Origin: a virus
Virus record (IMG/VR): IMGVR_UViG_3300044613_001217
Span: 1 to 21,991 of that record
Reading direction: 5' to 3' (one strand)
Length of the DNA stretch: 21,991 nt
This document shows, piece by piece, positions 2,362-21,365 of the stretch. The translations under genes and the position numbers were made by a program. Each line of letters starts with the position of its first letter. Position 1 is the first letter of the stretch. The notes below the pieces were generated by a model. It saw only the letters and a list, made by a program, of their open reading frames with translations. It had not been told where the DNA came from and ran no database searches.

Positions 2362-2625
2362 ATGGCTGAAGAATCCACACGCACGAAGATGATTCGTGAA
2401 ACCAAGGTTGACGATGACATGCCTATGGTTAAGAAAGCCGTCCGTGCTGTAACCCTTGGGGCAAGCAAGTTGGCTGACAAGATGGGTTTTACTCAGGAAA
2501 AAGAGTATTCGGATAAATCCAAAGAGGAAGTCGTTAAAAAACGTGCTGGTGGTACGGTATCTTCGGCTTCCAAACGTGCCGATGGCTGCGCTACTAAAGG
2601 TAAAACTCGCGGAAGGATGGTGTGA
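2362..2625 (+). CDS. Small basic protein with SASKRADG C-terminal module (copy 1)
   Basis: The protein has 87 residues. The ATG at 2362 is preferred over the GTG at 2359 because an AGGGG site sits 6 bases upstream. The N-terminal part is mixed-charge (TRTKMIRETKVDDDMPMVKKAVRAVTLG), and the protein ends in the first copy of the module SASKRADGCATKGKTRGRMV, placed exactly at the C-terminus. The N-terminal part is unrelated to those of the other module-bearing proteins downstream. Function unknown. The module is strongly basic and carries no known enzymatic motif. Confidence 0.65.
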   Translation: MAEESTRTKMIRETKVDDDMPMVKKAVRAVTLGASKLADKMGFTQEKEYSDKSKEEVVKKRAGGTVSSASKRADGCATKGKTRGRMV

Positions 2626-2626
2626 G

Positions 2627-2935
2627 ATGGGCTTAAAAATGGAAGATATTTCGCCTTTAGCCGCGATGATTTCCGGTAAAGGTGGTATGGGCAAGGCTAT
2701 GCGCCAAGGTTTTGGTGGAATAGCCCCAATGATGATTGCCCGTAGTGGGTATAAGGACGAGGAAGAAGAGCGTCGAGCGCAAGAACAAGCCGCTGCGGAA
2801 CAAGCCGCTGCTGAAGGCGGCATGAAAAAAGGTGGTAAGGTTAAAAAAATGGCTAAAGGGGGTTCAGTTGGTTCGGCTTCTAAGCGTGCTGATGGGGTTG
2901 CTACTCGTGGCAAAACCCGTGGACGGATGGTGTAG
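2627..2935 (+). CDS. Small basic protein with SASKRADG module (copy 2)
   Basis: The protein has 102 residues. The frame is open upstream to 2456, but the ATG at 2627 (MGLKMEDISPL) is chosen: GGAAGGA lies about 9 bases upstream and the previous gene ends at 2625. It has a Gly/Met-rich N-terminal part (AAMISGKGGMGKAMRQGFGG), then an acidic-to-Ala/Gln helix with two EQAAA units (52-63), a KKGG linker (GGMKKGGKVKKMAKGG) and the C-terminal module. The Ala/Gln plus KKGG stretch is shared almost exactly with the gene at 3146, pointing to a local duplication or recombination. Function unknown. Confidence 0.65.
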   Translation: MGLKMEDISPLAAMISGKGGMGKAMRQGFGGIAPMMIARSGYKDEEEERRAQEQAAAEQAAAEGGMKKGGKVKKMAKGGSVGSASKRADGVATRGKTRGRMV

Positions 2936-2936
2936 C

Positions 2937-3146
2937 GTGGATGCTTTAAAGGCCCTTAGTATTTTGTCTAACTTTATACCTAGAAAGCCGCCTTCACCTT
3001 TTGCAAAAGAGGAAAAGAAGGAAGACAAAAAGGAAGAGAAGAAGGAAGAGCCAGAAAAGAAACGCTCCGGTGGGATAGTTGGTTCTGCTTCCAAACGGGC
3101 CGACGGTATTGCTCAACGAGGTAAGACTAAGGGAAGGATTGTGTAA
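2937..3146 (+). CDS. Small Lys/Glu-rich protein with SASKRADG module (copy 3)
   Basis: The protein has 69 residues and starts at a GTG (2937), one base after the previous stop. The in-frame ATG further upstream (2832) lies inside the preceding gene and encodes an unrelated shadow sequence. Domains: a short hydrophobic start (DALKALSILSNFIP), a Pro stretch, then a highly charged Lys/Glu run (about residues 26-46, units of EEKKEDKKEE type) and the C-terminal module GSASKRADGIAQRGKTKGR. The charged run is probably a single helix or disordered. Function unknown. Confidence 0.6.
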   Translation: MDALKALSILSNFIPRKPPSPFAKEEKKEDKKEEKKEEPEKKRSGGIVGSASKRADGIAQRGKTKGRIV

Positions 3147-3394
3147 TGGAATTAAAAGATCTTGCTAATTACGGATCCTTTGGTGCTGCCGTTCCGGGAA
3201 TGTCGCGTTCTCTTAAAAAAGAGGCTGACAAATACCAGAATGAGGAAAAAAAACGCCGAATGGAAGAACAAGCCGCTGCTGAACAAGCCGCTGCTCAAGG
3301 TATGAAAAAAGGTGGCAAGGTAAAAATGTCCACTGCCTCTAAGCGGGCTGATGGTATTGCTACCAAGGGTAAAACGAAAGGCCGGATCGTTTAA
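3146..3394 (+). CDS. Small basic protein with SASKRADG module (copy 4)
   Basis: The protein has 82 residues; its ATG overlaps the previous stop by one base (TAATG). The N-terminus (MELKDLANYGSFGAAVPGMS) is followed by a charged helix with the same EEQAAAEQAAA unit as the gene at 2627, then MKKGGKVKM and the C-terminal module TASKRADGIATKGKTKGR. Apart from the Ala/Gln unit, linker and module, its sequence is unrelated to its neighbours. Function unknown. Confidence 0.65.
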   Translation: MELKDLANYGSFGAAVPGMSRSLKKEADKYQNEEKKRRMEEQAAAEQAAAQGMKKGGKVKMSTASKRADGIATKGKTKGRIV

Positions 3395-4068
3395 TGTATT
3401 TGACAAGCAACATTCCGTATTTTAAATGTTGGGTTAGAAAAGAGTTTACAAATGGGCATCAGGGTTATCACGGGGAGTATGTACACGCATTAGCAGTAGC
3501 AGTAACGACCATCCCTGATAGGTGTCTTAGTTTTCAAGTCATATTTACTGGGTGTGAAGCAGATGATGGTAGTCAACCAAATGTACATGGCGGTGCGATG
3601 TGGGCAAGGATGCCGATTACCGCTTTGGTTGGGGACATACCGCTTGAGCAATGGCCTGAGCGTATGCAAACCCATCTGGCACAGCCTTGGGACTGTAGTT
3701 CGTATAACCACGGGGTTGTTAAAATTGATCGGGCGCAACCCTCTCCGTGGCTTTGTAAAATTAATAACGAGTTTCACACTGGGCGGTATCTGTTCACGGT
3801 TGACTATGCTGAGAGCGAGGTTTCAGAAGACCCGTCCCAGCATAAACAAAGCCATGTGCTTATACTGACTGATGCAGGAAAATGGACAGGAAATATAGTG
3901 GCACTACCGAATAATCGAGTGCGAGTTACCAGCCCAGCGTATTGGGTTACTGGGCAAGGAGCGCCTGATTTTAAACCCAGCCAATGGATTCATTGTGCAG
4001 AGCAGGATGATTCGTACATGGACCCAGAGGTAACTTTTAATAACTTGTATAAGGAGTCTAAGAAATGA
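3394..4068 (+). CDS. Uncharacterised phage protein
   Basis: This 224-residue soluble protein has no signal peptide or membrane helix. It is unusually rich in aromatic residues, His and Pro, with stretches such as YFKCWVRKEFTNGHQGYHG, CLSFQVIFTGCEADDG, GGAMWARMPI, PWDCSSYNHGVVKID and SQWIHCAEQDDSYMDPEV. The length and mixed beta pattern suggest a folded globular domain. I do not recognise a catalytic motif. It starts on a TAATG overlap and ends in an ATGATGA overlap with the next gene, so it is translated with the small basic genes around it. It may be a virion or maturation component; this is a guess from position. Confidence 0.6.
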   Translation: MYLTSNIPYFKCWVRKEFTNGHQGYHGEYVHALAVAVTTIPDRCLSFQVIFTGCEADDGSQPNVHGGAMWARMPITALVGDIPLEQWPERMQTHLAQPWDCSSYNHGVVKIDRAQPSPWLCKINNEFHTGRYLFTVDYAESEVSEDPSQHKQSHVLILTDAGKWTGNIVALPNNRVRVTSPAYWVTGQGAPDFKPSQWIHCAEQDDSYMDPEVTFNNLYKESKK

Positions 4069-4370
4069 TGAAGTCCAAAATGATGGCTGGTGGTGGGATG
4101 ATGAAAAAAATGGCTGCTGGTGGTATGCCGATGGGGCCAGATGGTAAGCCTACTTTTGTTGGTGATGGCAAAGGCAAGATGGCTAAAGGTGGTATGACAA
4201 AGATGGCTGCTGCTGGCGGTATGATGTCTAAGATGAAGGCCGGTGGCGGTGTCATGTCCAAGATGAAAACTAGCGGCGGTGCTTCTAGCGCCTCTAAGCG
4301 AGCCGACGGTGTTGCTATAAAAGGCAAAACCAAGGGCAAACTTCTTGCTAAGGGCGGCATGACCAAATGA
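4065..4370 (+). CDS. Met/Lys/Gly repeat protein with SASKRADG module (copy 5)
   Basis: The protein has 101 residues. The ATG at 4065 has AAGGAG 8 bases upstream and overlaps the previous gene's stop. About the first 72 residues are a degenerate repeat of Met, Lys and Gly (MMKSKMMAGGG, MMKKMAAGG, MAKGGMTKMAAAGG, MMSKMKAGGGV, MSKMKTSGG). The shared module follows (GASSASKRADGVAIKGKTKGK) and then a short tail LLAKGGMTK. No hydrophobic core is evident, so it is probably disordered and strongly cationic. Binding to nucleic acid or to acidic virion surfaces is plausible but unproven. Confidence 0.65.
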   Translation: MMKSKMMAGGGMMKKMAAGGMPMGPDGKPTFVGDGKGKMAKGGMTKMAAAGGMMSKMKAGGGVMSKMKTSGGASSASKRADGVAIKGKTKGKLLAKGGMTK

Positions 4371-9942: not shown

Positions 9943-10941
9943 ATGGCAAGTACGTACAGTAATTTAAAAATTCAACTTATGGCTACCGGGGAAAACTCGG
10001 GGACATGGGGTAACGTCACTAATGACAATCTAGGGGTGGCAATTGAGCAGGCGCTTGTAGAAACAGCAACAGTTACATTTGCAAGCGCTAACGTCACCCT
10101 AAGCCTAACTAATACCAATGCAAGCCAAACGGCTCGTGCGTTAAGACTTGACTTAACAGGAACCACGGGCGGTGCTCGTGACCTCATAGTTCCAGCAATT
10201 CAAAAGCCATACATCGTTAATAATGGCACTGCCGACACTATTACGGTTAAAGTAACAGGCCAGACTGGTGTTGCGGTCCCCGCTGGACGGTCTTATTTGC
10301 TTTACAACAACGGCACAGATGTAGTAAATGCCCTTGAAGGTATATCGGTGGTTTCCGGTGGAACCGGACTTGAGACTTTGACCGCTGAAAGTGTAGTTAT
10401 AGGTAACGGCACAAATGCTGTTAAATTTGTAGCCCCCGGCACAACGGCTAACATACTTACATCTAACGGTACGGCATGGGTTTCTCAGGCCCCGGCTGGA
10501 GGACAGGCTTTTCCTTCTGGCACTGTAATGCTGTTTGCTCAAACTACTGCACCTACTGGATGGACTAAAAACACAACGCAAAATAATAACTCTGCGCTAC
10601 GCCTTGTGACTGGATCAGTTTCTACTGGTGGTAATGTTGATTTTTCGACTGTTTTTGTAAGTAATAGATCGGTAAATATTACTTCGGTAACAGGTTCTAT
10701 TGGTGCTACTACACTTACAACACCTCAGATACCAAGCCACACTCACGCTGTTAATAGGCAAAATGGTCCCAGTCAGGGTCAGTCTGTTTCATACATACAG
10801 GGTGTCACGTTGTCAAATGAAAATACAACAGCAACAGGTGGTGGTGGCTCGCATACTCACCCACTATCAGTATCAAGTGGTTCTGGAACAGTTGATCTTG
10901 ACGTTAAATACGTTGATGTTATTCGAGCAACGGCAGATTAA
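9943..10941 (+). CDS. Tail fibre with C-terminal phage collar domain
   Basis: The protein has 332 residues and AAGGAG before the ATG at 9943. The N-terminus STYSNLKIQLMATGENSGTW is a pattern typical of tail fibre attachment ends. A Thr/Ala-rich beta region with a GISVVSGGTGLETL segment (133-146) follows. The C-terminal part has the phage tail-collar signature: FPSGTVMLFAQTTAPTGWTK (190-209), then HTH at 266-268 (IPSHTHAV) and HTH at 304-306 (GGSHTHPL), and ends DVKYVDVIRATAD. In T4 gp12 and similar fibres, paired HxH motifs bind metal along the trimer axis. This is a strong candidate receptor-binding fibre. The next gene, an oxygenase, begins 3 bases after its stop. Confidence 0.85.
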   Translation: MASTYSNLKIQLMATGENSGTWGNVTNDNLGVAIEQALVETATVTFASANVTLSLTNTNASQTARALRLDLTGTTGGARDLIVPAIQKPYIVNNGTADTITVKVTGQTGVAVPAGRSYLLYNNGTDVVNALEGISVVSGGTGLETLTAESVVIGNGTNAVKFVAPGTTANILTSNGTAWVSQAPAGGQAFPSGTVMLFAQTTAPTGWTKNTTQNNNSALRLVTGSVSTGGNVDFSTVFVSNRSVNITSVTGSIGATTLTTPQIPSHTHAVNRQNGPSQGQSVSYIQGVTLSNENTTATGGGGSHTHPLSVSSGSGTVDLDVKYVDVIRATAD

Positions 10942-10943
10942 TT

Positions 10944-11567
10944 ATGGCAGTTAAAATTATTGACAATTTTTACCCAGACTCAATTATTGAAGATCTGCTA
11001 AGAGAAGAAATTGAGTGGGAGTTTTGTCGTTCTGATGTCCAGAGTGATATATATTGGACTAAACATATATATGGGGATATGTTTAGTAAGCCGCCTAAAG
11101 TAATTAAGCATATGAATTGCCAAAAAACAAAAAGTGCTTGGGATTTTTTTTCAGAAAAATTTTCTTTGTCAATTGATAATTTATATTCATGTTACATAAA
11201 TGGTTTGACTTTTGGTGTTGAAGCGTACCCACATATTGACGATGAAAGAGAAGATTATGTAACTGTAATTTGTTATTTGTGTGATTCTTGGAATTCTCAT
11301 TGGGCTGGGCCAACTGTTTTTTATAGTGGTGATTATGAAAGAAATTTGAATACTGGTAAACATGAACCAAACCCAGCCCATGAAATATATTACAAGCATG
11401 ATATAGTTTCTTCTGTTTTACCAAGAAGAAATAGAATTTGTATATTTAAATCAAATATACTTCATTCAGTTCACCCAATATCTAAAAGTTTTAAAGGAAT
11501 TAGAAAAACATTAATGTTTAAGTTAAATAATATTTCTTACGAGGATATTTTTGCAAATGCAACTTAA
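10944..11567 (+). CDS. 2OG-Fe(II) oxygenase A
   Basis: The protein has 207 residues. Key residues of the 2-oxoglutarate/Fe(II) dioxygenase core are visible: HxD at H97-D99 (AYPHIDDER), a distal His at H174 or H177 (SNILHSVHP) and Arg at 187 (GIRKTLMFKL), which would bind the 2OG carboxylate. Length and spacing match soluble prolyl-4-hydroxylase-like and related phage oxygenases. It would couple 2OG decarboxylation to hydroxylation of a substrate; the substrate is unknown. It starts 3 bases after the tail fibre gene, so both are probably co-translated. Its A+T-rich sequence contrasts with the fibre gene and suggests a separate acquisition. Confidence 0.85.
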   Translation: MAVKIIDNFYPDSIIEDLLREEIEWEFCRSDVQSDIYWTKHIYGDMFSKPPKVIKHMNCQKTKSAWDFFSEKFSLSIDNLYSCYINGLTFGVEAYPHIDDEREDYVTVICYLCDSWNSHWAGPTVFYSGDYERNLNTGKHEPNPAHEIYYKHDIVSSVLPRRNRICIFKSNILHSVHPISKSFKGIRKTLMFKLNNISYEDIFANAT

Positions 11568-11934
11568 GAATGGAGCCTTTTGCCCCTTACTTAAAAAAAA
11601 CTGTGTTGGGCTGCAATGCGCTTGGTTTGCTCGAGTGCAGGGTATGGATATGAATACCGGAAATCAGGTAGACGAATATCAGTGCGCTATTGCTTGGATG
11701 CCTATGCTTTTAATTGAAAACTCAGGCCAACAGCGGCAGACAGGTGCAGCAGTAGAAAGTTTCCGTAATGAAATGGTGAAGTCTAATGAAACTTCTCAAA
11801 AAGTTCTTTTAGCATCTTTGATGGCGGCACAACCCAATATTCAGCAGCAGGATAAACCAATTGCTATTGAAGTACAGGCTAGGCCAAAATCAAAAACTCA
11901 ATCTAAACTTAAAGTAACAGGAGTTAAAAAATGA
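11557..11934 (+). CDS. Conserved phage protein with Cys-rich N-terminus
   Basis: The protein has 125 residues from ATG 11557. An in-frame TTG at 11551 is also possible, with GAGGA about 5 bases upstream, and would add two residues. It overlaps the end of oxygenase A by 11 bases. The N-terminus reads KNGAFCPLLKKNCVGLQCAW, giving Cys at three close positions, with a further Cys in DEYQCAIAW. These may bind a metal. A helical region follows (IENSGQQRQTGAAVESFRNE), then a basic tail. I recall FCPL....C...QCAWF and GAAVESFRNEMV from genes near phage tail fibres; function unknown. Confidence 0.65.
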   Translation: MQLKNGAFCPLLKKNCVGLQCAWFARVQGMDMNTGNQVDEYQCAIAWMPMLLIENSGQQRQTGAAVESFRNEMVKSNETSQKVLLASLMAAQPNIQQQDKPIAIEVQARPKSKTQSKLKVTGVKK

Positions 11935-12239
11935 GAATTGTTATTCTTGCAGATGGTACTGTTGGTAAAGAGGGCACCTTTTATGTTTGCGATCTTTCTA
12001 CCTGCGGTTTACCTCAAAATTTTTGGGCGCTTCAGTGGGAAGAGTGGGAGCCTAACAAAGGTCATATTGAATATGATTCACCATCGATTGATAACGATCA
12101 AATCACTGCTCTTCCGTCTTGGGTTGACGCTTGTTTAATAAAGTGGCAAGAGGCTGTTGATGCAAAACAAGCGGCAGACGAAGCAGAGAGAGCCGCCCGC
12201 ATTGCAGCAGCGCAGCAGTCCTCGCAACAGGGGACTTAA
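11931..12239 (+). CDS. Small protein, possible tail-fibre assembly factor
   Basis: The protein has 102 residues; ATGA overlap with the previous gene. The N-terminal half is beta-rich with many aromatics (LPQNFWALQWEEWEPNKGHI, EYDSPSIDNDQ). The C-terminal half is an Ala/Glu/Gln helix (WQEAVDAKQAADEAERAARI). A small protein with a Trp-rich front and an Ala-rich coiled end directly downstream of a tail fibre is reminiscent of fibre assembly chaperones, but no specific family is recognised. It is less A+T-rich than the flanking oxygenase genes, so it probably belongs to the older tail module. Confidence 0.55.
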   Translation: MRIVILADGTVGKEGTFYVCDLSTCGLPQNFWALQWEEWEPNKGHIEYDSPSIDNDQITALPSWVDACLIKWQEAVDAKQAADEAERAARIAAAQQSSQQGT

Positions 12240-12240
12240 T

Positions 12241-12600
12241 ATGGCAAACCCAGAAGTTAAACTTGGTTGTGTGGCTAATTTATTTAGCCGTATGATGCAC
12301 TTTAAAAATGTTGGTGATGTAGAACATGGGCATACACATCAGTTTGACCACCTTACTCTTTTGGCTTCTGGGAAACTCCAAGTAACAGTTGATGGTCATG
12401 TGTCTGAGTTTGAAGCCCCACATATGATATATATTAAAAAAGATAAAATGCATGAACTTATTGCATTAGAGCCAAATACGGTTGCTTATTGTATTCATGC
12501 AATAAGAATTGGTGAAAATGTAGATGATATTGTTGATCCGTCTATGGTACCGGAAGGCGTGGATATACCACATGATTCATTGTTATGCGCCTTGAAATAA
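12241..12600 (+). CDS. Small cupin-domain protein
   Basis: The protein has 119 residues; the ATG at 12241 follows the previous stop by one base (an upstream in-frame ATG at 12157 lies inside the previous gene). It contains a single cupin barrel. Motif 1 is G25-x5-H31-T-H33-x3-H37 (HGHTHQFDH), with His where many cupins have Glu. A Gly turn (ASGKLQVTVDG) follows, then motif 2 ending in P60...H71 (APHMIYIKKDKMHEL). These four His could bind Fe, Mn, Zn or Ni. Small metal cupins may be isomerases, dioxygenases or sugar-binding proteins; which applies here is open. It lies among four oxygenases and overlaps the next one by 16 bases. Confidence 0.75.
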   Translation: MANPEVKLGCVANLFSRMMHFKNVGDVEHGHTHQFDHLTLLASGKLQVTVDGHVSEFEAPHMIYIKKDKMHELIALEPNTVAYCIHAIRIGENVDDIVDPSMVPEGVDIPHDSLLCALK

Positions 12601-13169
12601 TTCAAAACAATTATTTAGTTGTGCCGGGGTTTATATCCGCTACTTCTGCCAATTCATTAGCAGAGGAATTTAAAGCCTATTGTGGTAAGTTTAATCTCCA
12701 AGGAGATTCACAGGCGCCTAACTCACAGGCTATGTACAATTTTATGTCTTTTGTAAGACTACTCGTAGAGAAAGTACCAGAGGTATCTGAATTATTAGGA
12801 GAAAAAATTTTACCTACTTACACTTATGCAAGAGTGTATAAAGAAAATTCAGAATTGCTCCGCCATAGAGATAGGCCCGCCTGTGAAATAAGCCTTACAT
12901 TAAATCTATCAAAAGATAAAGATTGGCCTATTTATTTTCAACGATCTGATGGTTCTGAAACATTTGTTGAGTTAGCCCCCGGCGATGCTGTTATGTACTT
13001 AGGATGTCGGGCAGATCATTGGAGGAATAAATTTGTAGGGAAAGAATATACCCAATTGTTTATGCATTATGTAAGGTCGTATGGATCTAAATCATGGGCG
13101 TATTTTGATAAACTTCAACAACAAAACCCAACCCCTCCTGTGGCTGATATACCCAAAACTATTTTATGA
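12585..13169 (+). CDS. 2OG-Fe(II) oxygenase B
   Basis: The protein has 194 residues. The Fe-binding triad is visible as H94-R-D96 (LLRHRDRPACEISLTL) and distal H145 (CRADHWRN), with the PGDAVMYLG turn (132-140) before the distal strand. The usual Arg about ten residues after the distal His is not evident; the segment reads GKEYTQLFMHYV, so 2OG binding may rely on another residue, as in related phage proteins I recall with the same PTY.YAR.Y...L.RH.DRPACEIS pattern. It starts inside the last 16 bases of the cupin gene and has no clear ribosome binding site, so translation is probably coupled. Substrate unknown. Confidence 0.8.
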   Translation: MRLEIIQNNYLVVPGFISATSANSLAEEFKAYCGKFNLQGDSQAPNSQAMYNFMSFVRLLVEKVPEVSELLGEKILPTYTYARVYKENSELLRHRDRPACEISLTLNLSKDKDWPIYFQRSDGSETFVELAPGDAVMYLGCRADHWRNKFVGKEYTQLFMHYVRSYGSKSWAYFDKLQQQNPTPPVADIPKTIL

Positions 13170-13714
13170 AATTAAAAATATCTAGGGTTGTTAAAAGGTG
13201 GAAGTATGCTTCTATGGTAAAACCATCTTTTGATTTTCAATTAAACACAGCCGGTGATGGGCGACGTTTTGCAACACAAGATACTGCGCCTTACTGGAAG
13301 GAAGCATTTGCTGAGTTTAAGTTAGACCCTATAAGTGTAGAGCCAATATTCAAAAATTTAACAGGCAATCATTTTAAAGATGGGGCTTTTGTACACCCTC
13401 ATACTGACGTTGCTCCAGACGGATTTGTTCACGTTCGATGTAATTTAATGTTGCGCAAACCAAAAGAAGGCGGTAATCCTATTCTTGATGGTGAAGAGTT
13501 GGATGTTAAAGAAGGGGACTTGTGGTTGTGTTTAGCCAGTATGGAGACGCATTCTTCCACCCCTATTAAAGGTGGAGAAAGATTAATTTTTTCTTTTGGT
13601 GGTCTTGTCCCAATCGACCAGATTAACAAAATTTTATTTATTAAAAGTGAAAAATTAGATTGGTACGGGCGTTATGCAAATAAAAAATTAATTTATGAAA
13701 AATACATTTATTAA
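13166..13714 (+). CDS. 2OG-Fe(II) oxygenase C
   Basis: The protein has 182 residues and an ATGA overlap with the previous gene. HTD at 79-81 (AFVHPHTDVAPDG), distal H129 (MASMETHSS-type context, LASMETHSSTP) and R139 (GGERLIFSFGG) form the Fe(II)/2OG site. A KEGDLWLCL strand (115-122) precedes the distal His as in double-stranded beta-helix oxygenases. Its sequence is unlike oxygenases A and B outside these residues, so the three are not recent duplicates. It is A+T-rich like its neighbours. The substrate is unknown; its place directly between another oxygenase and an SGNH-like protein suggests a multi-enzyme pathway. Confidence 0.8.
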   Translation: MKLKISRVVKRWKYASMVKPSFDFQLNTAGDGRRFATQDTAPYWKEAFAEFKLDPISVEPIFKNLTGNHFKDGAFVHPHTDVAPDGFVHVRCNLMLRKPKEGGNPILDGEELDVKEGDLWLCLASMETHSSTPIKGGERLIFSFGGLVPIDQINKILFIKSEKLDWYGRYANKKLIYEKYIY

Positions 13715-14421
13715 TGCCTAAACTCTATACTTTTGGGGACAGTTTTACTTACGGATATAATTTTCTACCTGATGAGGAACTTAGAAAACGTAGTACATGG
13801 CCTACTAAATTATCTAATTTACTTGATTATGAATTAGTTGATTTATCAATACCGGGCGGAAGTAACTGGAGAATAGCAAGACTTATTTCTTCTATGAACT
13901 TTGAATCAGATTGCTTAGTTGTAATAGCATTTTCTACACACAAAAGATTTGAGTTTGGGGTAAATCAACAACATGAAATTCCAGAAGTGTTTTTAGAAAA
14001 CGGGGTACCTTTGGTAGGTGATTTAGTAGAAATAGATGGTAAGTTATTAACAAAAAGATTTTTTCCAAACTTAAACGAACGTTCTACGGATATAGACGCA
14101 AAAATATTTTCAACAATAGCATTTTCAGAATTTTTTAATGCTGAATGGTTTTCAAGAATGCAGGGGGTTAACTTTAATTCCATACGGCACAGGTTACAAA
14201 AACACAAATGGATGGCTTTTAACGCTTGGTCTAAACCATTTGAACCAAATGATTATTGGTTGCAAGAAACGCATATAGAAAATTATGTATTAGGTATAAA
14301 CGGTATCATGAGTGAGCAAGTAGCAAATACAGCAGATGATACTTTTGTTTATTTAAATGAAAATCAACATACAGTAGTCGCAAATATTTTACTAAAAGAA
14401 AGTAATAGTATTTATGGTTAG
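13714..14421 (+). CDS. SGNH/GDSL-hydrolase-like protein
   Basis: The protein has 235 residues; its start overlaps the previous stop by one base (TAATG). Block I is FGDSFTYG (7-14), with S10 the expected nucleophile. The block II Gly region is SIPGGSNWRIARL (45-57). A hydrophobic strand then ends in AFSTHKR (72-78), where classical SGNH enzymes have GxND. Near the C-terminus NENQHTVVANIL supplies H219, with Glu rather than Asp three residues earlier. The fold is convincing; the exact chemistry is less so. SGNH proteins remove or transfer acyl groups on glycans and small molecules. It may be an esterase or acetyltransferase-like decoration enzyme acting with the carbamoyltransferase whose gene overlaps its end by 8 bases. 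Confidence 0.75.
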   Translation: MPKLYTFGDSFTYGYNFLPDEELRKRSTWPTKLSNLLDYELVDLSIPGGSNWRIARLISSMNFESDCLVVIAFSTHKRFEFGVNQQHEIPEVFLENGVPLVGDLVEIDGKLLTKRFFPNLNERSTDIDAKIFSTIAFSEFFNAEWFSRMQGVNFNSIRHRLQKHKWMAFNAWSKPFEPNDYWLQETHIENYVLGINGIMSEQVANTADDTFVYLNENQHTVVANILLKESNSIYG

Positions 14422-15313
14422 TTATGGAGTTGTAGCGTTAAATCATGATGCTGCTTTAGCCGTTTTAGAAGATAAAAATTTATTGTTTTTTAAACGGGCC
14501 TCCGAGTATTCTGGCGTCCATAATGATTTTTTCCTTAACGAAGAAATAGTTTCAGATGCGTTTAACTTAGCCAAACCAGATAAAATTGGTTTTTTTGAAA
14601 ATCCGTACGTAAAAAAATATCGTCAATTTATAAGCGGACAATTTAATTTAGCCTTAGACATCGATTTATTTCCAAAAGTCTATTTACGAAGAATAGGATT
14701 TAGTAATGTTCCAATTGAATACCACGGGCATCACAATAGTCATGTAGCCTATGCTAAATATAGTTTAAATTTTGAGGAAGCAATTTATTTGGTCGCAGAC
14801 GCTATAGGAGAGATGGATACAATATCTATATGGAGTGTACGTGGAGACGTATTTAAAAAAATTAAATCTATAAAGTACCCAATTAGTCTAGGATTGTTTT
14901 ATTCTGCGTTTACTAAATTTATTGGTATGACACCCATAAAAGATGAAGGCAAATTTATGAATTTAAGTTTGTCTGGCAATCCGGAGCCTTACAAAAATTT
15001 AGTTTTATCGTACTTATATAAAAATTTGCACTTTGGTGTTAAAGATATTGACCCCTTAAATTTTAATTTAGAAAACCTAGCGGCCTCTGTACAGGAAGTT
15101 TTTCAAGAAGAGTTACTTAAGTTAGTTTATAGTTGCAGATCTTTATCTTTAGAATTACCAATTGTGTTTACTGGGGGTTGCGCACATAATAAACTTTCTA
15201 TAGACTATGTTAAGAAACAAGTAACTAATTTTTACCATGTTCCTGATCCCGGTGATGCAACTAGCAGTATAGGTGCTGCTTACTTGACTTACGTAAAACA
15301 CAAACTTGTATGA
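14414..15313 (+). CDS. Carbamoyltransferase N-terminal (Kae1-like) domain protein
   Basis: The protein has 299 residues. It shows the ASKHA/Kae1-like half of NodU/CmcH/TobZ O-carbamoyltransferases: NHDAALAVLED (10-20), the metal-binding HxxxH as HGHHNSH (104-110, H106 and H110), VADAIGEMDTISIW (127-140, where VxDGxGE is usual), LGLFYSAFTKFIG and KDEGKFMNLS (177-184), NLAASVQEVFQ (221-231), TGGCAHN (253-259) and PGDATSSIGAA (279-289). Full-length family members are about 550-600 residues and carry a second YrdC-like domain that makes carbamoyl-adenylate. That domain is absent here and the next gene starts 4 bases before this stop, so this is not a simple cut. It may need a partner or host enzyme for the donor. 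The acceptor is unknown. Confidence 0.8.
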   Translation: MVSYGVVALNHDAALAVLEDKNLLFFKRASEYSGVHNDFFLNEEIVSDAFNLAKPDKIGFFENPYVKKYRQFISGQFNLALDIDLFPKVYLRRIGFSNVPIEYHGHHNSHVAYAKYSLNFEEAIYLVADAIGEMDTISIWSVRGDVFKKIKSIKYPISLGLFYSAFTKFIGMTPIKDEGKFMNLSLSGNPEPYKNLVLSYLYKNLHFGVKDIDPLNFNLENLAASVQEVFQEELLKLVYSCRSLSLELPIVFTGGCAHNKLSIDYVKKQVTNFYHVPDPGDATSSIGAAYLTYVKHKLV

Positions 15314-15870
15314 AAAGTATCAGCGATTACATTGTTACATTTGAAAATGCAATGACCCATGCTCTTTGTGACGCCATATTAGAAGAATTTAACAATGAAG
15401 AAGAATGGGAAAAAACAGTTGTTGGCGAGGGGCGAGTAGATGAAAAAACTAGAACAGCAGAAACAATTGTAATTTCTTATCCGCACATAATAGAAAAAAA
15501 CAAAAAAGTAAGGCAAAAACTTGATAAATATATATTTGCTTCTGCCGGATTAGCAATAAGGAAATATAACGAAAAATTCCCTTTGGCTCTTATTCAAGAA
15601 GATTCAGGTTATGAATTATTAAGATATAAAGAAAGTCAGTTTTACGCCCAACATACAGATTCTTTTAAGGAACGTCCTCGTGCAGTATCTTGTTCTTTTT
15701 CATTAAATGATGATTATGAAGGGGGTGAGTGGGGGTTTTTTGATCGTGAGACAGTTATAAAGGCACCAAAAGGTTCAGCAATACTTTTCCCATCAAACTT
15801 TATGTACCCACATGAAATAATGCCTGTAACAAAAGGTACTCGTTACTCAGTTATAACTTGGTTTATTTAG
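15310..15870 (+). CDS. 2OG-Fe(II) oxygenase D, prolyl-4-hydroxylase-like
   Basis: The protein has 186 residues and an ATGA overlap with the carbamoyltransferase gene. This is the most canonical oxygenase of the window: LLRYKESQFYAQHTDSF with H115-x-D117, the EGGEWGFFD strand (137-145), APKGSAILFPSNFMYPHEIMPV with distal H168, and KGTRYSVITWF with R178 for 2OG. The pattern Y...G.....H.D followed by L.GGE..F and P..G.AL.F...F.H.V.PV..G.RY is that of prolyl-4-hydroxylase-type enzymes, including phage homologues. It could hydroxylate a protein side chain, making an acceptor for the carbamoyltransferase upstream. That link is inferred from gene order only. Confidence 0.9.
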   Translation: MKSISDYIVTFENAMTHALCDAILEEFNNEEEWEKTVVGEGRVDEKTRTAETIVISYPHIIEKNKKVRQKLDKYIFASAGLAIRKYNEKFPLALIQEDSGYELLRYKESQFYAQHTDSFKERPRAVSCSFSLNDDYEGGEWGFFDRETVIKAPKGSAILFPSNFMYPHEIMPVTKGTRYSVITWFI

Positions 15871-15880
15871 GAGTAAAAAA

Positions 15881-16099
15881 ATGAAAACAGTAATCGAAGC
15901 GCATAAGGTAGATGGGGTAAAAGTCTGCCGCTCAGAGGAAGTCCACGTTTGCGCCGCTTGTGGGTACGACTTAGACGAGGCTGAGTTAGCGGCTGATACT
16001 TGCTCCGATTGTGGTGCACCTTTGAAGTTAAGAAAATCTGTATCAGTCTGGGCTACATCCGTACCCAAAGCCGGTGTTAAGACTTGGGGTGATAAGTGA
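15881..16099 (+). CDS. Small zinc-ribbon protein
   Basis: The protein has 72 residues with a strong ribosome binding site (TAGGAGT) before the ATG at 15881. CAAC (24-27) and CSDC (41-44) form a four-Cys zinc ribbon with a 13-residue spacer. An earlier Cys (16) is extra. The surrounding sequence is mixed-charge with no other motif, ending in VPKAGVKTWGDK. Its codon use is richer in G+C than the flanking oxygenase D and DUF6065-like genes. Zinc ribbons of this size act in protein or nucleic-acid binding; the partner is unknown. It overlaps the next gene by 4 bases (GTGA). Confidence 0.65.
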   Translation: MKTVIEAHKVDGVKVCRSEEVHVCAACGYDLDEAELAADTCSDCGAPLKLRKSVSVWATSVPKAGVKTWGDK

Positions 16100-16821
16100 G
16101 TTTAATAAAAGTATGGACAAACATACCGGAGTTATTAGATATACCGGAATGTATACCCCAACCCGCACATAAATTTTTACCTAAATGGTGGAAAGACACT
16201 CCTGTATATACAAAAGAAAATCTTAGTTTTTACGAAAAACTTAGTGATAATTTCACTGTAAAAAAATGTCCTGCTTTTCCTGAATTTTTATACCAAGGTA
16301 TTGTAATTCCTATGTGGTGTGATTCTTATCTTTATTCTAATAAATCAGAGTGGAAATATAAGGTACCAAGTTCTAAGTTTAATTGGGCAATCCACAAAAA
16401 TAATCAATTTGTTGATCATATTCCGTCTTGGGCTAAAGATAACATTGTAGCGACATTTAAAAGTACTTGCCCTTGGTACATTAAAACTCCTCCGGGTTAT
16501 TCAGTATATCAACTACCACTTTTTTATAATTTTAATCAAAATTACACTGTTGCACCGGGAAGTATTCAAACCGATAAACATCATCAAATAAATCAGCAAG
16601 TACTTTTTCACACTAAAAAAGAAGAAATATTAATACCTCGTGGAGAACCTTTTGTATGGTACATACCGTATAAAAGAGAAGAATTTACCTACAGTATTAT
16701 TGGAGGGGGGGAAGAAGAAAAACAAGATTTAAAAAATAGTAACATACATATCGACACAAAATTTTCTAACGGATATAGTGGGCACACAGAAAATGTTTGT
16801 CCTATGAAAAATCGGAGTTAA
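16096..16821 (+). CDS. Conserved phage protein, DUF6065-like
   Basis: The protein has 241 residues from a GTG start in a GTGA overlap. Conserved-looking segments in order are VWTNIPELLDIPECIPQPA (6-24), FLPKWWKD (27-34), KKCPAFPEFLYQGIVIPMWC (56-75), CPWYIKTPPGYSVYQLPLFY (125-144), SIQTDKHHQINQQVLFH (156-172) and ILIPRGEPFVWYIPYKRE (178-195). The CP.F.E....G..IP, PW.I.TPPGYS, DT/TD.HH.IN and I.RG.P....IP.KR order is one I recall from phage proteins and from DUF6065, which I take to be a cupin-like beta barrel. TDKHH could bind metal. No function is known. It is strongly A+T-rich and sits at the end of the oxygenase island. Confidence 0.6.
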   Translation: MSLIKVWTNIPELLDIPECIPQPAHKFLPKWWKDTPVYTKENLSFYEKLSDNFTVKKCPAFPEFLYQGIVIPMWCDSYLYSNKSEWKYKVPSSKFNWAIHKNNQFVDHIPSWAKDNIVATFKSTCPWYIKTPPGYSVYQLPLFYNFNQNYTVAPGSIQTDKHHQINQQVLFHTKKEEILIPRGEPFVWYIPYKREEFTYSIIGGGEEEKQDLKNSNIHIDTKFSNGYSGHTENVCPMKNRS

Positions 16822-16823
16822 TA

Positions 16824-16883
16824 ATGGGTGTTTGGGCGTTGACTTTCCTATTTTTACTGCTACCTTGGGTTTTATTTATTTAG
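16824..16883 (+). CDS. 19-residue hydrophobic peptide
   Basis: ATG at 16824 with GGAG 6 bases upstream opens a 19-codon frame ending at TAG 16881-16883. The peptide is almost entirely hydrophobic (MGVWALTFLFLLLPWVLFI), matching the length of one membrane helix. It fills the gap between the DUF6065-like gene and the first gene of the lysis region. Tiny phage membrane peptides can act in lysis control, superinfection exclusion or membrane anchoring. The ribosome binding site and the composition support it; no homology can be claimed. Confidence 0.45.
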   Translation: MGVWALTFLFLLLPWVLFI

Positions 16884-17972: not shown

Positions 17973-18370
17973 TGTTACCTATAGCCGCACTGTTAAGTAT
18001 TGGGGAAAAGGTTCTAGACAAGGTTCTGCCAGATCCAGAGGCACGGGCCAAGGCGCAGGCTATGCTTTTAGAGATGCAACAAAAAGGAGAACTTGCCAAA
18101 CTCCAAGCCGACATGAACGAGCAGGACAACTTGACCAAACGGGCTGAGGCTGACATGAAGTCGGACTCATGGCTATCCAAGAACATCCGGCCTATGACAC
18201 TGATCTTTATCCTATTGACATACACCGTATTTGGGATGATGTCCGCTTGGGAGATTGAGGTAAACAATAACTATGTAGAACTCTTGGGCCAGTGGGGGAT
18301 GCTAATTATGTCCTTTTATTTTGGCGGGCGCACCCTTGAGAAGATTATGGATATGAGGGTAAAAAAGTAA
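17972..18370 (+). CDS. 3TM-type holin family protein
   Basis: The protein has 132 residues and starts in a TAATG overlap. The N-terminus has a weakly hydrophobic amphipathic segment (ALLSIGEKVLDKVLP), then a long charged helix (DPEARAKAQAMLLEMQQKGE, residues 21-65) followed by WLSKNIRPMTLIFILLTYTV (TM 73-93) and WGMLIMSFYFGGRTLEK (TM about 105-118). The order DPEA.A.A..ML...Q.GE...LQAD, D.W.S..IRP......, G...MSFYFGGR.LEK matches the holin-of-3TMs family (gene-transfer-agent-type holins). It would act in the inner membrane. Having this and a T-like holin adjacent suggests holin plus regulator, or two pore formers. Confidence 0.75.
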   Translation: MLPIAALLSIGEKVLDKVLPDPEARAKAQAMLLEMQQKGELAKLQADMNEQDNLTKRAEADMKSDSWLSKNIRPMTLIFILLTYTVFGMMSAWEIEVNNNYVELLGQWGMLIMSFYFGGRTLEKIMDMRVKK

Positions 18371-18417
18371 AAATGTACACACGCTACCAACGCCATATAT
18401 AGAAAAGGCTAAATTGT

Positions 18418-19002
18418 ATGCAAAATATATGTAAAGATTATATTTTTCCTAGTATTGTATATTCTATGGATTTAGAAGATGTAAACAATTCTTGTTTAAT
18501 AGAAGATTGTTTAAAAATAAAAGAAAGTAATGAATCCGTTCAAAACAGCAATGTAGGTGGTTGGCAAAGCCCACTTATATGTGAAAAATTAAAAACTCTA
18601 AACTTAAAAACTTTAGAACAAAAAGTTGAAGAAGCAATTTTATTTGTACTAAATTGTGAAAACTTACCCAATATAAAACTTAAAACTGGTTATTGGATTA
18701 ACATAAATAGTAGTAATGATTATAATATAATCCACCACCATACATTTCCTTTAATTACCGCAGTATATTATCCTTTTGTACCAAAAGATTGTGAGGCGGA
18801 ATTAGTTTTTAGCAGAACAGATGGTGGATGTTATTTTGATTTGCATAAATCAAACTCAATATTTTCAATTTCTTGTAAAACGGGAATGTTAGTTATATTT
18901 AGCCCTCATTTATTTCATTATGTTTTACCTAACAAATCTAAAGAAAATCGTATATCAATAGCATATAACTTTAAGGCCATACAAAATGAACCTGACCGCT
19001 AA
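18418..19002 (+). CDS. 2OG-Fe(II) oxygenase E (2OG-FeII_Oxy_5-like)
   Basis: The protein has 194 residues; AAAAGG precedes the ATG at 18418. YWININSSNDYNIIHHHTF (92-110) supplies His at 106-108, LITAVYYPFVP follows the iron-binding strand, and LVIFSPHLFHYVLPNKSKEN gives distal H167, with R178 in RISIAYNF. The YN..H.H....SGVYY ... G.L..F....H.V.PN....RISIA.N order is that of the putative 2OG-Fe(II) oxygenase family Pfam calls 2OG-FeII_Oxy_5 (TIGR02466). It is strongly A+T-rich and sits between holin and endolysin genes whose base composition differs, so it looks inserted into the lysis cassette. It overlaps the endolysin start by 17 bases. Substrate unknown. Confidence 0.8.
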   Translation: MQNICKDYIFPSIVYSMDLEDVNNSCLIEDCLKIKESNESVQNSNVGGWQSPLICEKLKTLNLKTLEQKVEEAILFVLNCENLPNIKLKTGYWININSSNDYNIIHHHTFPLITAVYYPFVPKDCEAELVFSRTDGGCYFDLHKSNSIFSISCKTGMLVIFSPHLFHYVLPNKSKENRISIAYNFKAIQNEPDR

Positions 19003-19457: not shown

Positions 19458-21365
19458 ATGCCATTTATAGCACTTAGATTTAAACCGGGAATAAACCGAG
19501 ATCAGACCAACTACTCTAACGAGGGTGGCTGGTTCGAGGGTGACAAAATTCGTTTCCTTTCGGGTTTTCCTCAAAAGATTGGTGGCTGGCTTAAACAGAC
19601 GCCTAATACCTTTCTTGGCACTTGCCGCCAACTATTTAATTATGTAACAACTTTTGGGGACAACCTATTAGCCGTTGGGACAAACTTAAAACTGTACATA
19701 GAAGCAGGTGGCTATTTTTATGACATTACTCCTCTACAAGCCACAACAACTGCTGGAGATGTAACATTTGCTGCTGTTAACGGATCTTCTACCGTAACAG
19801 TTTCGGATACAAGTAATCCAGCAGTGGCAGGTAATTATGTTCAATTTACTGGCGCCGTTTCTTTGGGTGGTAATGTCACGGCTGCGATCTTAAACGTCAA
19901 CCAAGGCTTTGAAATTGCTACCGTAGTTAATGCTAACGCTTACACAATTGTTGTTCCGGTAACGGCTAATGCTTCTGATGCAGGTAATGGCGGCTCTGCA
20001 ACGGTTGGTAAGTATCAGATAAACGCTGGCCCTCCGGGTGGTACGTTTGGTTATGGCTGGGGAACAGATACTTGGGGCCGTCTTGAGTGGGGTCTTGGGG
20101 GAACAATACCGGTTGCTTTAAGTGGTAGCGATTGGTGGTACGACAACTTTGATAATGACTTAGTTGCTAATATTCGAGACGGCGCTATTTATTATTGGGA
20201 GCGTGGGTCTTCTACTAACCCCGGGGTAGCGCTTAATACTAATGCAATCCTTCTTTCAACAAAGGCCACCGCAGATGGATACAACGCCAATGCAGTACCA
20301 GCCAAGGCTATGCAGGTTCTTGTATCGCAAAACGACAAGCATCTTCTCGCTTTTGGGAGTGTGCCTTTTGGTTCTACTAGTGTGGCTGATTTTGACCCCC
20401 TTCTTATTAGGTGGGCTGATCAGGATAATCCGGGCCAATGGACTCCGACGCCTACCAACTCTGCGGGATTTATAAGGGTATCTAGGGGATCGAGGATTGT
20501 CCGTGCCCTACCAACAAGGCAAGAGATCTTGGTATGGACTGAATCGCATCTTTATTCTTTTCAATATCTTGGAACCACAGACGTATTTGGCTTACAGGAA
20601 CTAGCAGACAACATCTCTATCCTTAGCCCACGGGCTACTGTAACCGTAAATAACGTAACTTACTGGATGGGGACAGAGAAGTTCTATGCCTACTCAGGCC
20701 GAGTTGAGACCCTACCTTGCACTTTGCGACAGTTTATCTTTCAAGATATTAATTTTGGTCAGGCCGACACTATTATTTCTGGCTCAAACGAGGGTTGGAA
20801 CGAAGTTTGGTGGATTTACCCAAGTTCTAGTTCTTCATACCCCAACCGTTATGTAATCTATAACTACCTTGAGCGTATCTGGTACTACGGGAATATTGAT
20901 CGTACCGCATGGTTAGACAGTCCGTTGCGTGAGTATCCTATGGCAGTCAATACACCCGGTGGCACCAGCACTGGAGTTTTATACGACCAAGAAAATGGTT
21001 TAGACGACGACGGTGCTCCTATAACGGCTTACATTCAATCATCTGACTTTGATATTGCCGATGGTGAGCAGTTTATGTTGACTCGTCGTATGCTTCCAGA
21101 TATTAACTTTTCTAACTCAACCGCCGCTGCACCAGAAGTAACGCTACAGATTCGCCCCCGTAACTTCCCCGGGTCAGGCTTCCAACCTGTAGGTACGACG
21201 GACTCTAAGCCGGTAATTGAGACTGCGGTAGATGTTTACACGGATCAGGTATTTATCCGTGCCCGTGCCCGTCAGATGGCGTTAAAAATTAGTTCAGAGG
21301 ACTTAGGCGTTAATTGGCAGTTAGGTGTGCCTAGACTAGATGCTCGTGTGGATGGTAAACGCTAA
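19458..21365 (+). CDS. P22 gp10-like stabilisation/tail protein
   Basis: The protein has 635 residues; GAGG lies upstream of the ATG at 19458. It begins FIALRFKPGINRDQTNYSNE, then GGWFEGDKIRFLSGFPQKIG, a pattern typical of P22 gp10-like proteins that join the neck to the tail needle and stabilise the packaged head. A Thr/Val-rich insert lies at about 95-190 and a Gly/Trp segment (YGWGTDTWGRLEWGLGG) near 195-215. The rest has repeated WYDNFDNDL, LLAFGSVPFG, EILVWTESHLYSFQYLG and YRNP-like beta-propeller strands, ending VNWQLGVPRLDARVDGKR. No enzymatic motif. It probably works with the gp4-like protein at 5171. Confidence 0.75.
   Translation: MPFIALRFKPGINRDQTNYSNEGGWFEGDKIRFLSGFPQKIGGWLKQTPNTFLGTCRQLFNYVTTFGDNLLAVGTNLKLYIEAGGYFYDITPLQATTTAGDVTFAAVNGSSTVTVSDTSNPAVAGNYVQFTGAVSLGGNVTAAILNVNQGFEIATVVNANAYTIVVPVTANASDAGNGGSATVGKYQINAGPPGGTFGYGWGTDTWGRLEWGLGGTIPVALSGSDWWYDNFDNDLVANIRDGAIYYWERGSSTNPGVALNTNAILLSTKATADGYNANAVPAKAMQVLVSQNDKHLLAFGSVPFGSTSVADFDPLLIRWADQDNPGQWTPTPTNSAGFIRVSRGSRIVRALPTRQEILVWTESHLYSFQYLGTTDVFGLQELADNISILSPRATVTVNNVTYWMGTEKFYAYSGRVETLPCTLRQFIFQDINFGQADTIISGSNEGWNEVWWIYPSSSSSYPNRYVIYNYLERIWYYGNIDRTAWLDSPLREYPMAVNTPGGTSTGVLYDQENGLDDDGAPITAYIQSSDFDIADGEQFMLTRRMLPDINFSNSTAAAPEVTLQIRPRNFPGSGFQPVGTTDSKPVIETAVDVYTDQVFIRARARQMALKISSEDLGVNWQLGVPRLDARVDGKR

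Follow-up and report, generated by a model that had tools for sequence, protein, structure and literature searches.

Why should four mutually unlike oxygenases stand directly behind a phage tail-fibre gene? The question is raised by IMG/VR virus record IMGVR_UViG_3300044613_001217 (positions 1 to 21,991; this whole 21,991-base stretch is called the window below), which covers a phage structural region. Positions 10944-15870 are occupied by four candidate 2-oxoglutarate (2OG)-Fe(II) oxygenases, named OxA to OxD here, together with a cupin, an SGNH-like protein and a carbamoyltransferase (CTase). The guanine-plus-cytosine (GC) content of this island is 0.32-0.40, compared with about 0.46 in its flanks. 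Gene coordinates derive from a list of open reading frames (ORFs) and their translations (Table 1), and fetched related loci and contigs are labelled with L-numbers. A preliminary description of the sequence had drawn the island from 10944 to 16821 and had proposed that the set hydroxylates and then decorates a substrate, perhaps the fibre, a protein with a 22-residue repeat, a surface glycan or DNA. The island holds up as far as 15870, and its relation to the fibre proves closer than adjacency.

This relation is seen in the siblings of the phage, defined as phages with backbone genes 82-96% identical to those of the window. Sibling DNA aligns to the window flanks at 85-97%; in the closest cases the match stops at 10286-10331, inside the fibre gene, and restarts at about 15877, at a zinc-ribbon gene (83-91%). 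Between these two breakpoints the siblings are wholly different, with another fibre tip and usually other oxygenases, which identifies the tip and the enzymes as an exchanged unit. The N-terminal ~115-147 amino acids of the fibre are common to the siblings (residues 1 to ~131-147 in the closest cases), so that a conserved fibre N-terminus carries an exchanged tip, as in tail-fibre exchange modules. The window tip is of the collar type, with HTH motifs and the sequence ...DVKYVDVIRA, while sibling tips are S74-type, Gly-rich, collagen-like or other. After the fibre, the sibling islands continue with chaperone-like ORFs, a cupin of either of two types, and one or two oxygenases, and tips and enzyme sets change together between siblings. 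In this family of freshwater phages, the island is the variable half of a tail-fibre-tip exchange module. Like known phage modules of fibre tip and chaperone, it has a conserved N-terminal anchor, a swapped tip and a chaperone-like gene downstream; unlike them, it also holds tip-matched oxygenases and tailoring enzymes. Collagen-like (GPT)n stretches were observed in the fibre tips of L041 (4577-4729) and L078 (3094-3228). An oxygenase type, C28, occurs among sibling islands only in these two; a link between C28 and collagen-like tips was considered and dropped, as C28 relatives elsewhere lack collagen.

The lineage of OxB tracks the fibre-tip type perfectly over 61 labelled loci, and not the phage backbone. 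In two distant collar-tip phages, L089 and L064, OxB shares 78% and 75% identity with the window protein, compared with just 59% and 53% for the backbone protein. Compared with siblings bearing Gly-rich adhesins (L006, L020, L021, L026, L039), the identity of OxB is 31-34%, whereas that of the backbone proteins is 91-96%. In an OxB tree with 62 labelled rows, 20 collar and 41 Gly-rich rows are split by 1 change, against a mean of 17-18 changes with shuffled labels and 0 of 500 shuffles as low as 1; these shuffles show clustering only, and near-copies contribute to it. A locus received the Gly-rich label from its closest upstream ORF of that composition, and this ORF and the exchanged tip do not always belong to one gene.

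At least 595 IMG/VR stretches contain OxB; 80 of them were kept, and 79 newly fetched loci were analysed. The co-occurrence across related phages raised in the preliminary description was confirmed for OxB and OxD: the two are fused in 33 of the 79 loci and lie within three ORFs of each other in another 37, giving 70 of 79 in total. In most of the nine loci with no pair, OxB lies near a contig end. In 51 of 63 loci (81%), OxB has a fibre-like or chaperone-like ORF at most three ORFs upstream; random anchors placed in these loci reached 40% on average and 59% at most over 2000 trials. After clustering at 60% identity, this holds for 16 of 21 loci. The collar-type order, observed in L089, L093, L096, L105 and L108, is fibre, (OxA), 4-Cys protein, chaperone-like protein, (cupin), OxB, (cargo), OxD, with parentheses marking members that are not always present. 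The cargo in or beside the pair is variable: OxC in L064, a full-length CTase in L048, a radical SAM/B12 protein in L093, two DUF6065-like proteins in L105 and a CTase split into two ORFs in L108. Instead of the fixed four-oxygenase pathway suggested earlier, OxB and OxD are a core pair, to which CTase, SGNH-like protein, OxA and OxC are optional additions.

All four island oxygenases carry the HxD...H iron triad and, as had been described, are otherwise unlike: mutual BLASTP of OxA to OxD and of a fifth oxygenase, OxE, gave no significant similarity (best E ~0.02), and weak profile matches among them are consistent with one superfamily. The 2OG-binding Arg also agrees with the earlier account, being clear in all but the second enzyme, at +13 in OxA and +10 in OxC and OxD. 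A double-stranded beta-helix is predicted by structural modelling for OxB, by PF13640 matches above the cut-off for OxA and OxD, and by the motif and a weak profile match for OxC. OxB has no Pfam match; its iron site is H94xD96 and H145, with HxD and the distal His invariant in the alignment. The AlphaFold2 (AF2) model of OxB (pTM 0.80) spans the 2OG oxygenase fold over residues 1-175, and its closest structural neighbours (VIA Z 15-17 over 144-173 residues) are SnoN, the Pseudomonas putida prolyl 4-hydroxylase (P4H), PiuC and HIF-PHD2, with SnoK and free-amino-acid halogenases also near the top. OxB is thus predicted to be a 2OG oxygenase with a P4H/PHD2-like fold. In OxD, the iron site is H115xD117 and H168, the triad is invariant in the alignment, and profile matches include PiuC, bacterial and algal prolyl 4-hydroxylases, PHD2, prolyl 3-hydroxylase 1 (P3H1) and the lysyl hydroxylase LH3; by these profiles OxD resembles prolyl and lysyl hydroxylases. 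The pair would share with P4H, PHD2 and procollagen lysyl hydroxylase the OxB fold, the OxD profile (E down to 5e-13) and the HxD..H iron site, and differs from them in its setting in a phage fibre cassette, in the paired or fused state and in the Arg of OxB. For the P. putida P4H there is a structure, 4iw3, whose title describes a complex with the protein EF-Tu.

The OxB family is named ferrochelatase in PHROGs and RefSeq. It matches 156 phage-collection records, many of those listed bearing this name, and includes T4-GC615 of S-PM2. Neither Pfam nor the predicted fold supports the name, with the proviso that absence from a fold list is not proof. For cyanophage 2OG oxygenases and T4-GC615, the suggested roles were 2OG/nitrogen signalling or DNA repair (PMC3037559). 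Oxygenases stand beside short tail fibre and chaperone genes in S-PM2, S-RIM32, S-H9-2 and S-SCSM1. The open-access library searched yielded no paper linking phage 2OG oxygenases to fibres, and no relevant paper on FlmC, or on PiuC with fibres.

Cultured cyanophages contain the arrangement as well. S-PM2, S-H9-2, S-RIM32, S-SCSM1 and P-SSM2 have 2OG oxygenases right after collar or short tail fibre genes, around chaperones. The order is short tail fibre, 4-Cys gene, hypothetical gene and OxB-OxD in S-SCSM1, and tail fibre or collar, 2OG oxygenase, chaperone and 2OG oxygenase in S-RIM32 and S-H9-2. In S-SCSM2R, a fused OxB-OxD is followed by glycosyltransferases (one of family 25), an aminotransferase-like gene and an amidinotransferase. 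Overall, the OxB-OxD pairing spans podovirus-like contigs, cyanomyoviruses and bacterial chromosomes. In four betaproteobacterial contigs (L175, L176, L177, L179), three ORFs precede OxB and OxD: a large one of repeat-like, surface-protein-like character, one resembling a lipoprotein, and a third. In L177, a 4.5-Mb Polaromonas contig and the one scanned, these include an Lcl_C-domain lipoprotein and a kinase of the APH type, and SecA-like and M50-like genes lie opposite. The contigs show an independent pairing with surface proteins, though probably one related operon, possibly for surface-protein modification or export. An OxB homologue of Brasilonema sp. CT11 (L185 5803-6474) lies between two very large ORFs resembling nonribosomal peptide synthetases (NRPS).

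The small genes between fibre and OxB recur with the pair. The 4-Cys protein was found in 21 fetched loci, every one with OxB/OxD. It has no match in Pfam, PHROGs or NCBIfam, and its sequence (CPLxKKxC, CAW, C...ENSxQQR..VESFRNE) is highly conserved in fibre modules of unrelated phages. The chaperone-like protein shares only its N-terminal part with its L048 homologue, which matches PF16778 (E=2.7e-9); it appears to be the N-terminal part of a tail-assembly-chaperone family, lacking the C-terminal PF16778-type domain. The cupin is a real, if weakly matching, member of its family, and begins at 12241 and not at 12157 as first given. Copies 64-91% identical occur at the equivalent place in L048, L064, L089 and L093. 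OxA does adjoin the collar-type fibre, starting 2 bases past the stop codon and not 3. Its iron site is H97xD99 with the distal H174, it matches the FlmC family of NCBIfam far below the cut-off (E=4e-13), and a homologue (48-51%) is at the same place in L096. Relatives of OxA, itself a 2OG oxygenase by motif and profile, carry the label "DNA endonuclease V" in many cyanophage records. The iron site of OxC is H79xD81 and H129, with PF13640 below the cut-off, and a copy 82-83% identical lies between OxB and OxD in L064.

The remaining cargo of the window consists of the SGNH-like protein and the CTase. For the former, the GDS block is present, its Pfam matches stay sub-threshold and the block III Asn was not seen; SGNH-like ORFs, recognised by motif only, are found near the CTases of L086, L106 and L113, and in L106 and L113 both lie within ~8 kb of OxB. 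The assignment of the CTase is clear, with matches to GdmN, NovN and TobZ as well as to PF02543, and conserved residues including the HHxxH motif, H106, H110, D129 and D281. Only the N-terminal domain is present: the protein stops at the boundary where the C-terminal PF16861 domain begins in homologues. The C-terminal domains of L048, L086 and L108, used as queries against the window, other frames included, gave no significant match, and this domain may lie outside the fragment. The protein thus resembles the O-carbamoyltransferases NodU, TobZ and GdmN in its Kae1-like domain with conserved His/Asp residues and differs in missing the C-terminal domain, which L048 and L086 have in the same protein and L108 as a separate gene. 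In L108 the CTase is naturally split, with the C-domain ORF (2477-3046) ahead of the N-domain ORF (3048-4112). In TobZ, the corresponding C-terminal domain makes carbamoyl-adenylate. Since it is missing here, the window CTase would need an activated carbamoyl donor from elsewhere, perhaps supplied by a host protein or by a phage gene that lies beyond the fragment.

The gene content, the fold, the exchange together with the tip, the pairing of OxB and OxD and the agreement of OxB lineage with tip type are shown; for the substrate, the reaction and the benefit, we infer the following sequence of events. Recombination inside the fibre gene replaces the host-contacting tip along with its service genes, namely the 4-Cys protein, the chaperone-like protein, sometimes the cupin, and OxB with OxD. 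During late expression, OxB and OxD would place hydroxyl groups on residues of the incoming tip, or on those of a protein that assembles with it. Cargo enzymes (here OxC, the SGNH-like protein and the Kae1-like CTase; elsewhere a radical SAM protein, a glycosyltransferase or a full carbamoyltransferase) could then attach groups to the hydroxyls or to a sugar, or trim such groups, and this decoration might tune receptor binding or protect the tip. The proposal that the tip or a partner protein is hydroxylated by OxB and OxD, and that cargo enzymes decorate the product, has in our judgement an even chance of being right. Of the substrates first proposed, the fibre gains from the co-exchange with the tip, the match of OxB lineage and tip, the hydroxylase-like OxD and the same gene order elsewhere; no support was gained for DNA or for the 22-residue-repeat protein, whose repeat is undetectable at the DNA level.

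Several observations weigh against a role in tip modification. Siblings L032 and L036 have the fibre and no oxygenase at the island site, which implies that the enzymes are not always needed. Five of the 21 non-redundant loci have no detected fibre or chaperone upstream of OxB, and in Syn30 and ACG-2014f OxB lies away from fibre genes. In phage CRP-361 the 4-Cys gene has a large ORF on one side and a tail assembly chaperone on the other, a position that places this gene in the fibre module, with no annotated oxygenase adjoining. The tip labels come from simple rules on composition and BLAST matches, which left 26 of 88 loci unlabelled. Finally, OxB has no Arg 10-14 positions past the distal His, where the usual 2OG-binding residue would stand, which lowers the claim that it is a standard active member; another residue may serve 2OG binding, the Arg of the HWR and HxDR motifs being invariant.

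Tip modification is the most economical reading, and its main rivals are a linked insertion hot spot and a receptor-matched modification of host glycan. If the fibre flank were a tolerant hot spot, oxygenases and tailoring genes would collect there as morons, travel with the tip by linkage and act on unrelated targets; the GC drop, the siblings lacking oxygenases and two more single-gene insertions away from the tip in the same genome (16096-16821 and 18418-19002) would all be expected. The account is nevertheless unlikely in view of the perfect match between OxB lineage and tip type, the breadth of genomes in which OxB and OxD are paired, and the fixed order of fibre, 4-Cys, chaperone, OxB and OxD. 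We also rate it improbable, to a like degree, that the set hydroxylates, carbamoylates or acylates a host surface glycan, blocking superinfection or masking the cell in a manner matched to the receptor of the tip. Such a modifier would likewise track tip type, and decorating glycans is typical of carbamoyltransferases and SGNH proteins; L086 and L113 each have a cluster of SGNH, CTase, sulfotransferase-like and glycosyltransferase-like genes, and glycosyltransferase, aminotransferase-like and amidinotransferase genes follow OxB-OxD in S-SCSM2R. Against it stand the peptidyl-hydroxylase-like character of the core enzymes, the location of the set in the structural region and the island ORF list, which shows no membrane protein for acyl or glycan transfer.

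Two other accounts fare considerably worse. The pair and its cargo might make or tailor a small molecule or peptide as auxiliary metabolism, with the fibre linkage incidental, as the NRPS-like neighbours of the Brasilonema homologue and the presence of SnoN, SnoK and free-amino-acid halogenases among the top structural neighbours of OxB would allow; the phage cassettes examined contained no recognisable peptide synthetase, peptidase or transporter, and the OxB lineage matches fibre type, which makes this account very doubtful. Least credible is DNA hypermodification, where the oxygenases would hydroxylate bases, an oxidation known for some 2OG enzymes, and the CTase would carbamoylate them, as in 5-carbamoyloxymethylcytosine. 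A phage-type DNA carbamoyltransferase is known, likewise from an environmental phage contig, and co-occurs with thymidylate-synthase-like genes (PMC8670742). In the 22 kb of the window, where not every ORF was profiled, no such partner was recognised; the TobZ cytosine-specificity positions 408, 421 and 423 should fall in the C-terminal domain absent here, and OxB and OxD resemble peptidyl hydroxylases.

Table 1. Genes of the fibre-tip cassette of the window and of the neighbouring insertions.
Feature	Position	Strand	Evidence or remark
Fibre gene, collar-type tip	9943..10941	+	Sibling DNA match ends inside; tip exchanged
OxA, 2OG-Fe(II) oxygenase, optional in collar-type cassette	10944..11567	+	PF13640 E=9e-7
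Small 4-Cys protein, fibre-module gene	11557..11934	+	Motif CPLxKKxC...CAW...C
Chaperone-like small protein	11931..12239	+	Clusters with L048:3865-4335
Cupin-like protein	12241..12600	+	PF07883 E=8e-4, below cut-off
OxB, core oxygenase, predicted P4H/PHD2-like 2OG fold	12585..13169	+	AF2 model and motif
OxC, putative divergent 2OG oxygenase, cargo between OxB and OxD	13166..13714	+	HxD..H..R; PF13640 E=0.015
SGNH-like protein, cargo	13714..14421	+	GDSFT block I; sub-threshold Pfam
Stand-alone Kae1-like (N-terminal) CTase domain, cargo	14414..15313	+	PF02543 E=4e-18
OxD, core oxygenase, prolyl/lysyl-hydroxylase-like	15310..15870	+	PF13640 E=4e-17
Zinc-ribbon protein, conserved right flank of cassette	15881..16099	+	Sibling similarity resumes ~15877
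phrog_7084/DUF6065-like, separate insertion	16096..16821	+	Sibling match breaks 16090-16880
OxE, fifth oxygenase, between holin-like and peptidase genes	18418..19002	+	PF13759 E=1e-14

Beyond the cassette, the gene at 16096-16821, which the preliminary description had included in the island, and OxE, which it had missed, are separate single-gene insertions, because the sibling match breaks only over 16090-16880 and 18366-18983. No HxD was seen in OxE. The 16096-16821 gene is absent from the siblings examined; its homologues adjoin OxB/OxD in L082, L093 and L105. Its AF2 model (pTM 0.64) predicts a dUTPase-like beta-clip fold, as a fold-level lead, with VIA Z ~10 and all 50 rows shown being dUTPases. 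Relatives of this phrog_7084/DUF6065-like protein were observed in L082, L087, L088, L093 and L105, and also in haloviruses and a cyanophage. Elsewhere in the window, five small basic ORFs (2359-2625, 2456-2935, 2832-3146, 3146-3394, 4065-4370) end, or almost end, in a near-identical tag, S(A/T)SKRADGxAxxGKT+G, the remainder of the five proteins being unlike. Many IMG/VR contigs carry the backbone gene at 19458-21365, with protein identities reaching 96%; in isolates such as DSL-LC04 and the pelagiphages HTVC027P and HTVC023P the identity is 28-40%. A tRNA search of the window found none, and island DNA had almost no matches among named phages, where the cupin and the SGNH-like protein had none. 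In IMG/VR single-protein scans, the CTase and the 16096-16821 protein matched nothing but a copy of this phage. Among solved structures, sequence searches with OxA, OxC and 16096-16821 turned up no useful match.

Aquatic phages abound in 2OG oxygenases, whose role has been an open question ever since cyanophage genomes first appeared; for the OxB family, "ferrochelatase" is a widespread and probably wrong label. As a general scheme, we tentatively suggest that aquatic phages decorate the receptor-binding fibre tip by means of a lineage-matched pair of peptidyl hydroxylases and exchangeable enzymes for carbamoyl, acyl or glycosyl tailoring, tip and chemistry being inherited and exchanged as a unit, and the CTase of the window acting as a stand-alone Kae1-like domain fed with activated carbamoyl by another protein; in this full form the scheme is possible rather than probable. 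With OxB and OxD tied to exchangeable tips, it becomes testable in cultured phages whether the tips are hydroxylated or decorated, and whether host range is set thereby.

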